Source of the DNA: Candidatus Saccharimonadota bacterium | GTDB lineage: Bacteria; Patescibacteriota; Saccharimonadia; Saccharimonadales; Saccharimonadaceae | Assembly (NCBI GenBank): GCA_030529095.1 | Contig: JAUMXN010000005.1 | Span: 1-44,336, forward strand | Direction of reading: 5' to 3' | DNA: 44,336 nucleotides | Shown here: positions 31,718-33,277 of the stretch, one piece after another | How positions within the stretch are numbered: the stretch's first letter is position 1 | Layout: each line of letters begins with the position of its first letter | Position numbers and translations under genes: made by a program | Notes under the pieces: model-generated | The model's database searches: none | Seen by the model: only the letters and a program-made list of their open reading frames with translations | Told to the model about the DNA's origin: nothing

Positions 31718-32431
31718 ATGGACACGACACCATATCAAGAATTCGCAAAAGCTAAACTCGGCTTCGCTTTTAATAATATCGAGCTTTTGGTCACCGCTTT
31801 AACGCACCGTAGCTACGTAAATGAGCACAAAGCCAGCGTACACGATCACAACGAGCGCCTAGAATTTCTCGGCGACGCTATTTTGGAGATGGTGTCTTCA
31901 GATTTTTTGTATCGCAACTACAACGAACCTGAGGGTATCATGACTTCTTGGCGCGCTGCCTTGGTGCGCACCGAATCGATTGGCGCTGCCGGCAAAGAGC
32001 TCGGCTACGAACCACTAGTGCGCCTTTCTAAAGGGGAAAAGCACGGTTCCGAACGCGCTCACGACGTGATTTTGGCGGACTGTTTTGAAGCTGTGATCGG
32101 CGCAATCTACCTAGACCAAGGCTACGAAGCTGCCAAAGACTTTATTTATAAACATATTTTGAACAAAATCGACGAGATTCTCGAAGACGAATCTTGGCGC
32201 GATCCAAAATCTTATTTCCAGGAATTGGCCCAGAAAGATGCTGGTGTTACCCCAGTTTATCGCACGCTCAAAGAAGAGGGGCCGGATCACGACAAAAACT
32301 TCACCGTTGGCGTTTATGTCGGCAATGAGCTTAAAGGTGTAGGGAACGGCCACTCCAAACAAGAGGCTCAAACCGCCGCCGCCAAGGAAGGCGTCAAGAG
32401 TTACAAGGCGGCCGAAAAGAGTGCCAAGTAA
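31718..32431 (+). CDS. rnc: Ribonuclease III
   Basis: Cuts double-stranded RNA in rRNA processing and mRNA decay. The 237-residue protein has the catalytic domain with HNERLEFLGDAILEMV (metal-binding Glu and Asp) and the second acidic pair in HDVILADCFEAVIGAIYLDQG, followed by a double-stranded-RNA-binding domain (about 160-230, DPKSYFQELAQKD to GHSKQEAQTAAAKEG). TAGGAGG lies 7 bases before the ATG. It is the last protein gene of the rpmF unit; a separately promoted RNA starts about 45 bases after its stop. Confidence 0.95.
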   Translation: MDTTPYQEFAKAKLGFAFNNIELLVTALTHRSYVNEHKASVHDHNERLEFLGDAILEMVSSDFLYRNYNEPEGIMTSWRAALVRTESIGAAGKELGYEPLVRLSKGEKHGSERAHDVILADCFEAVIGAIYLDQGYEAAKDFIYKHILNKIDEILEDESWRDPKSYFQELAQKDAGVTPVYRTLKEEGPDHDKNFTVGVYVGNELKGVGNGHSKQEAQTAAAKEGVKSYKAAEKSAK

Positions 32432-32440
32432 TCTTCGTAC

Positions 32441-32469
32441 TTGCAAAAAACCGCAAAAGATAGTATAAT
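32441..32469 (+). promoter_or_regulatory. Promoter of structured RNA between rnc and rpsP
   Basis: TTGCAA (32441-32446), 17-base spacer, TATAAT (32464-32469). Transcription should start near 32476, at the left arm of the first hairpin. No protein-coding frame follows. Confidence 0.8.
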
Positions 32470-32475
32470 GACAAC

Positions 32476-32742
32476 GACGATTGATTAATCGTATTTTTTC
32501 CAATTAATACGGGATCCCCCCTAAGTTAACGAAAAAAGACACAATCAATCGTAGTACTATATCGAATTAGTGAGTCTGCCACCCCTCTGTTATGTAAACA
32601 CATATTCCTCACTAATTTGATCAGTCCAAGAAGGGCTATCAAGATCTTCAGGCAGATTGATAGCCTACTTACCTTATCTCCCGCCCCCTCCTTGGGCGGG
32701 GGGTACTATGGTTCACGCAGGGTCTTTTAAAGACCCTTTTTT
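32476..32742 (+). ncRNA. Unassigned structured non-coding RNA, about 267 nt
   Basis: The 390-base gap between rnc and rpsP holds an RNA unit with its own promoter and terminator. Four perfect local stems follow one another: ACGATTGATT / AATCAATCGT (32477 and 32542 regions) enclosing a CGTATT / AATACG hairpin; AATTAGTGAG / CTCACTAATT (32565 and 32608 regions) enclosing TATGT / ACATA; GGCTATCAA / TTGATAGCC (32634 and 32666 regions); CCCGCCC / GGGCGGG (32680-32700 region). A 7-base terminator stem closes the unit. I found none of the conserved blocks of RNase P RNA, tmRNA or SRP RNA. 6S-like or another regulatory RNA remains possible; the name cannot be given from sequence alone. rpsP has a separate promoter downstream. 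Confidence 0.75.
32719..32742 (+). terminator. Terminator of the structured RNA
   Basis: AGGGTCT / AGACCCT with a TTTAA loop and T5-6. Confidence 0.9.
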
Positions 32743-32786
32743 AATGCTCGGCTTTGGCGGGGCTTCCCTTTTTTGAAAAAATAGTG

Positions 32787-32821: not shown

Positions 32822-33277
32822 ATGCTCGCGATTCGCATGCAACGTAATGGCCGTGCACATCTTCCGATGTACAGGATAGTCGTCCAAGAAGCGCAGCGTC
32901 ACCCTCTTTCAGGTCGTGTCGTTGCTGAGGTCGGCAATTACAACCCAGCAACCAAAAAAGTAGTGCTCGACACTGAAAAGGTCGAATTCTACCTTAAAAA
33001 TGGTGCAAAACCATCTTCTCGCGTCGCCTTCGTCTTCAAGAAGAATGGCGTCAAGCTCCCAGATTGGTACAAAGAAGCTCCTGCTAAGTCTGCCAAAGGT
33101 AAACACCAAGACAAACTTCGCAAGAACCAACCAAAAGAAGAACCAGTCGAAGAAGCTCCAGTTGCTGAGGAAGCCCCAGTTGAGGCTCCAGCTGAAGAGA
33201 CTCCAGCAGAAGCTCCAGCCGAAGAGGCTGCTCCTGCCGAAGAAGCTCCAGCTGAAGAAACCCCAGCCGAAGCCTAA
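32822..33277 (+). CDS. rpsP: 30S ribosomal protein S16 (bS16) with acidic repeat tail
   Basis: bS16 helps 30S assembly. The first about 85 residues are the complete normal protein (MLAIRMQRNGRAHLPMYRIV, GRVVAEVGNYNP, FYLKNGAKPSSRV). The protein then continues to 151 residues with a basic stretch and a repetitive Pro/Ala/Glu tail (about residues 104-151, PAEE and ETPAEA units). Such a strongly acidic tail on an rRNA-binding protein is unusual. AAAGGAG lies 6 bases before the ATG. A terminator follows, and khpA has its own promoter although the order rpsP-khpA is the widespread one. Confidence 0.95.
   Translation: MLAIRMQRNGRAHLPMYRIVVQEAQRHPLSGRVVAEVGNYNPATKKVVLDTEKVEFYLKNGAKPSSRVAFVFKKNGVKLPDWYKEAPAKSAKGKHQDKLRKNQPKEEPVEEAPVAEEAPVEAPAEETPAEAPAEEAAPAEEAPAEETPAEA
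33138..33274 (+). repeat. Degenerate in-frame tandem repeats in rpsP
   Basis: Repeated GCT-CCA-GC(T/C)-GAA-GA(A/G) units of 12-15 bases encode the PAEE/ETPAEA tail. They are coding repeats, not a CRISPR or intergenic array. Confidence 0.75.

Follow-up and report, generated by a model that had tools for sequence, protein, structure and literature searches.

The interval between rnc and rpsP in a Candidatus Saccharimonadota genome very probably contains an RNA fold maintained by selection, as judged by comparing the sequences of three species. The fold belongs to a structured non-coding RNA gene of ∼265 nt (32476–32742, + strand; limits inferred from the −10 box on the 5′ side and the terminator on the 3′ side) within the 44,336-nt stretch of DNA that we analyzed, hereafter called the window. 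The host is an ultra-small rumen/gut bacterium, and the other two carriers (genomes G508 and G504) are species of the same genus. We regard the RNA as a real, undescribed family of a narrow lineage and of a known general kind, the bacterial non-coding RNA gene. Our preferred reading, to which we assign a probability of about 0.45, is that of an independent gene for a regulatory small RNA (sRNA) of this narrow Saccharibacteria lineage, acting via the linker and the P4 loop in its 3′ part.

The upstream neighbor of the RNA gene is rnc, encoding RNase III (31718–32431, + strand; Pfam Ribonucleas_3_3 and dsrm), and the downstream neighbor is rpsP, encoding ribosomal protein S16 (32822–33277, + strand; Pfam Ribosomal_S16), which has a TATAAT box on its own upstream side. 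In the window, S16 is extended at its C terminus by a long stretch of Ala/Pro/Glu repeats (33130–33277; EEAPVEAPAEETPAEAPAEE...), the length of which varies among relatives. Nine bases past the rnc stop codon lies a sigma-70-type promoter (TTGCAA-17-TATAAT, 32441–32469, + strand) that matches 10 of 12 consensus positions, and the RNA ends at an intrinsic terminator, AGGGUCUU-UUA-AAGACCCU followed by a U run (32719–32742, + strand; hairpin 32719–32737), with an 8-bp stem (32719–32726/32730–32737). Taken alone, both signals are near chance level, since scans of 1.1 kb returned three promoter-like sites versus 1.6 in shuffled sequences and two terminator-like sites versus 1.3. The promoter match gains its weight from conservation in the two other species, where the same promoter (TTGCAAAAA...TATAAT) is found directly 3′ of rnc (L032:2022ff in G508, L117:1272ff in G504). 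The terminator stem of G508 differs in sequence and is still paired; in G504 no clear U run directly follows hairpin P4, so that the 3′ end of the RNA is less certain there. We saw no terminator between rnc and the RNA promoter in the window, G508 or G504. The + strand ORFs within or overlapping the RNA encode just 37–39 aa, and comparison by eye of the three RNAs revealed no ORF common to them. The initial annotation had described a frame-free RNA delimited by this promoter and this terminator, both of which are indeed present.

The predicted structure is far more stable than that of shuffled sequence. The minimum free energy of 32470–32745 was −85.8 kcal/mol, compared with −57.4 ± 4.6 kcal/mol for shuffled sequences (z = −6.15; none of 200 dinucleotide shuffles as good), and the homologues gave z-scores of −4.11 (G508) and −6.44 (G504). 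All three RNAs share a layout of four consecutive domains, here called P1 to P4 and all located on the + strand. The P1 domain (32477–32552) is closed by a 10-bp stem (32477–32486/32543–32552) and holds a small nested stem with a C-rich loop, the nested part being predicted in G504 and missing in G508. P2 (32561–32621) has a 14-bp stem (32561–32574/32608–32621), which in the window also encloses a small hairpin; its loop length is variable, with 33 nt in the window, about 100 in G508 and about 77 in G504. P3 (32633–32666) is a 10-bp stem (32633–32642/32657–32666). It is followed by the linker ACUUACCU (32667–32674), a possible contact site that contains UUACC in all three species (AAUUACCAUUA in G504). 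The linker is predicted to be unpaired at >0.8 in G508 and G504; in the predicted ensemble of the window it is partly paired and not called unpaired. P4 (32675–32705) is a C-rich/G-rich hairpin of 12 bp (32675–32686/32694–32705; 10 to 12 bp across the three species) with a loop that is predicted to be unpaired and is C-rich in all three (CCUCCUU in the window; CCUCGUUC and CCCUAU in the others). The match of this loop to the anti-Shine–Dalgarno sequence CCUCC is perfect in the window only. An alternative 12-bp pairing of 32547–32558 with 32702–32713 was rejected, as it is confined to the window and not kept in the other species. Four perfect stems, two of them enclosing a small hairpin, had been noted initially; their number and the two nested hairpins (in P1 and P2) hold, and the stems are longer than the 7–10 bp given, with 10, 14, 10 and 12 bp for P1 to P4.

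Overlooked until now was a 6-bp loop–loop complementarity between UCUGCC (32575–32580, + strand), which directly continues the 5′ strand of P2, and GGCAGA (32651–32656, + strand), which lies in the hairpin loop of P3 immediately before its 3′ strand. These strands would form a conserved pseudoknot (PK) that locks P2 to P3. Both are retained in the homologues, the 5′ strand as UCUGCCA in G508 and CUGCCA in G504, the 3′ strand as GGCAG in both. In the window and G508 alike, UCUGCC adjoins P2 and GGCAGA adjoins P3, such that P2, PK and P3 would make up an almost continuous stack; in G504, CUGCCA lies three bases past P2, and UGGCAG stops one base short of the P3 3′ strand. Because the strands are invariant, covariation lends the pseudoknot no support, and the case for it is built on complementarity and position.

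Among the rnc-rpsP loci of relatives, one carried the RNA (L032:2013–2340 in G508, isolate RGIG7212 from water buffalo caecum), directly behind rnc and with the same promoter. Searching 174 genomes of the genus with R1, a covariance model built on the P3-linker-P4 module, identified a third member in G504 (L117:1501–1578; 42.4 bits, E = 4.5e-9), which again directly follows rnc behind the same promoter. A three-sequence model (R2) found no fourth member among 394 genomes of the family and 393 of the order, drawn as samples. The RNA was thus present in 3 of the 174 genus genomes, a count that applies to a genome set in which about half of known species are represented and to a search whose first filter can lose weak matches. 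Weak model matches at L113 (which sits after a large membrane-protein ORF), L114, L115 and L118 turned out to be unrelated C/G-rich hairpins or terminators. Two pattern scans of viral contigs and a BLAST search of phages gave no match to the RNA. G087, the genome that ranks next in rnc similarity (91% identity), has ORFs behind rnc, and the RNA was not found there; most of the genus has nothing comparable downstream of rnc. This narrow spread argues against a universal housekeeping RNA and for a lineage-specific one. In all three species, the RNA starts ∼10 nt past rnc, and the next gene on its 3′ side differs each time: rpsP, a 167-aa ORF without a Pfam match, or a 1422-aa DUF285 protein. With the same promoter and place and unlike downstream genes, the unit is not part of the downstream gene.

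The rnc-rpsP interval of the genus (L032–L111, L127, L128) is itself a hot spot, ranging from 32 bases to over 2 kb. It harbors different ORFs of ∼150–200 aa, many behind a TATAAT box of their own; two that we scanned against Pfam gave no match. The 1422-aa protein, of the DUF285/BspA repeat type, is encoded within this interval directly 3′ of the G504 RNA (L128:499–4767).

Substitutions among the three species point to selection on the fold. At four-fold degenerate sites of rnc, 43–44% of positions differ among the window, G508 and G504. Comparing 12 P2 pairs of the window and G508 by hand, outside the model, we counted four double compensatory changes and not a single break; in G504 the P2 sequence is unrelated, yet 12 bp are paired with one bulge. 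In P3, five of nine modelled pairs are changed on both sides in G504 relative to the other two species, with none broken, and P4 shows two double changes and the loss of three outer pairs in G504. The joint covariation score of P3 and P4 was 0.476, compared with 0.241 for shuffles (one of the 500 reached the same level) and at most 0.159 in slid registers; as these figures come from three sequences in a model-fitted alignment, each is modest individually, and the hand comparison of P2 agrees with them. Furthermore, 71 of the 84 columns of the P3–P4 block are kept between the window and G508, above the level of the four-fold sites (Fisher p = 2.6e-5). In P1 and P2 the fold is better conserved than the sequence. 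At the level of primary sequence, conservation is highest in the 3′ module, consisting of the PK strand, the UUACC linker and the C-rich P4.

No known family accounts for the RNA. Scanning the entire window with Rfam at gathering scores (cmscan) returned no family, and lowering the threshold to E ≤ 10 over the RNA region yielded only unrelated sub-threshold chance matches, so that the initially suggested check for a significant Rfam match was negative. RNase P RNA, tmRNA and signal recognition particle (SRP) RNA had been set aside initially, and our data bear this out: the window has no match to RF00010 or RF00023, the RNase P RNA and tmRNA of the same genome lie elsewhere, above cut-off (C19:1900–2229 and C19:6038–6393, respectively), and models of SRP RNA, a class with a conserved Ffh-binding hairpin, found nothing in the RNA region at E up to 10. 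The model of the small bacterial SRP RNA (RF00169) gave no match in genomes G000, G504 and G508 (89, 97 and 96% complete), although 13 of 14 control genomes produced one; this group may have a divergent SRP RNA. The proposal of a 6S-like RNA found no support. RF00013 gave no match in this genome and none over cut-off in three relatives, and in place of the rod that defines 6S RNA, paired from end to end around a central bubble, consecutive local domains are predicted in all three species. The other initial suggestion, a class not yet described in this phylum, survives as to the class, given the lack of an Rfam match, the compensated homologues and the promoter and terminator of its own, but ‘phylum’ is too wide for an RNA found, among the genomes searched, in three closely related species.

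The chief rival to a separate gene is a cis-acting element in the rnc 3′ UTR, since rnc invariably precedes the RNA and we saw no terminator separating the two. Here the long P2-PK-P3 stack (14 + 6 + 10 bp in the window), in which P2 and PK abut in the window and G508, would be bound or cut by RNase III for its own control, and the internal promoter would be secondary. There is precedent, as RNase III is known to regulate itself via cleavage of double-stranded RNA in other bacteria; this known autoregulation works through the messenger's 5′ end, however, as in E. coli, and the near-consensus promoter is kept in all three species although most of the genus has nothing similar after rnc. We hold the explanation to be unlikely. 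Equally unlikely, in our estimate, is a family with its own fold and P2-PK-P3 stack that was born beside rnc and has an undescribed action, for example RNase III-linked control in an epibiont. A leader of the downstream gene, that is, a riboswitch or attenuator, would account for a structured RNA with a terminator ahead of a gene and would call for a conserved gene downstream; the three unlike next genes, one of them for a DUF285 surface protein, largely refute it, and rpsP has its own TATAAT box, leaving it a very slim chance. Chance hairpins in an unconstrained gap would fit promoter and terminator scans that are near random when taken alone, but they are refuted by the covariation, and the fold z-scores in three species and the conservation above four-fold sites also stand against them.

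Two further explanations were weighed. The RNA could bind or sequester a protein, functionally like 6S or CsrB, with the fold rather than a seed being what matters. The preservation of P1 and P2 above their sequence and the conserved possible tertiary contact are in line with such a role, but we consider it fairly improbable, given the missing 6S match and rod, the lack of repeated GGA loops as in CsrB and the restriction to three species. Alternatively, the RNA could be lineage-specific cargo of the variable interval, belonging to a defence, antitoxin or mobile element, as the size range and varied ORFs of the interval might suggest. Its constant position at the same interval edge, the lack of a partner gene common to the three species, of tandem repeats like those of type III antitoxins and of viral or phage matches make this decidedly doubtful.

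The promoter and terminator of its own, the lack of a conserved ORF and the unlike downstream genes fit a stand-alone RNA gene, and promoter, intrinsic terminator and missing ORF are also what is expected of a trans-acting sRNA. According to our preferred reading, a free RNA of ∼265 nt would be transcribed from the conserved promoter, the locked P1-P2-P3 part would provide a stable scaffold, and contact would be made through the UUACC linker together with the C-rich P4 loop, which might regulate mRNAs by pairing with their G-rich ribosome-binding sites or else bind a protein. We offer this mode of action via the 3′ contact site as a weak suggestion. Predicted pairing of the linker with the start regions of rnc and rpsP gave nothing shared among the species; the rpsP start of G504 was the only case to stand out from most shuffles, 4 in 200 of which did equally well. 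A limited literature search found no study of small RNAs from Saccharibacteria. Their genomes are tiny and densely coded, and a selected non-coding gene of 265 bases must earn its place in them. Present in three sister species and not found in the relative nearest to them, this structured RNA is also a tractable case.

Several known RNAs invite comparison. Like 6S RNA (RF00013), the RNA would be a stand-alone, highly structured bacterial RNA of a few hundred bases with its own promoter; unlike 6S RNA, which binds the RNA polymerase holoenzyme and templates product RNAs, it is built of individual hairpins with a predicted pseudoknot rather than as a rod with a central bubble and is not general in the genus. 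With RNase P RNA and tmRNA it would share being a large pseudoknotted RNA, but these have their own loci elsewhere in the genome. Type III antitoxin RNAs (ToxI) are pseudoknotted too and consist of tandem repeats with a toxin gene downstream of them. The RNA described here, likewise predicted to be pseudoknotted and located in a variable interval, differs in that it has no tandem repeats (by eye) and no conserved toxin-like partner, the downstream genes giving no toxin-family matches. RsaE-type regulatory sRNAs of Firmicutes have C-rich loops. Compared with them, the RNA is larger, predicted to be pseudoknotted and without an Rfam match, and the sequence of its C-rich loop varies, but it has in common with them its own promoter and terminator, stable stems and C-rich loops that could meet Shine–Dalgarno sequences.
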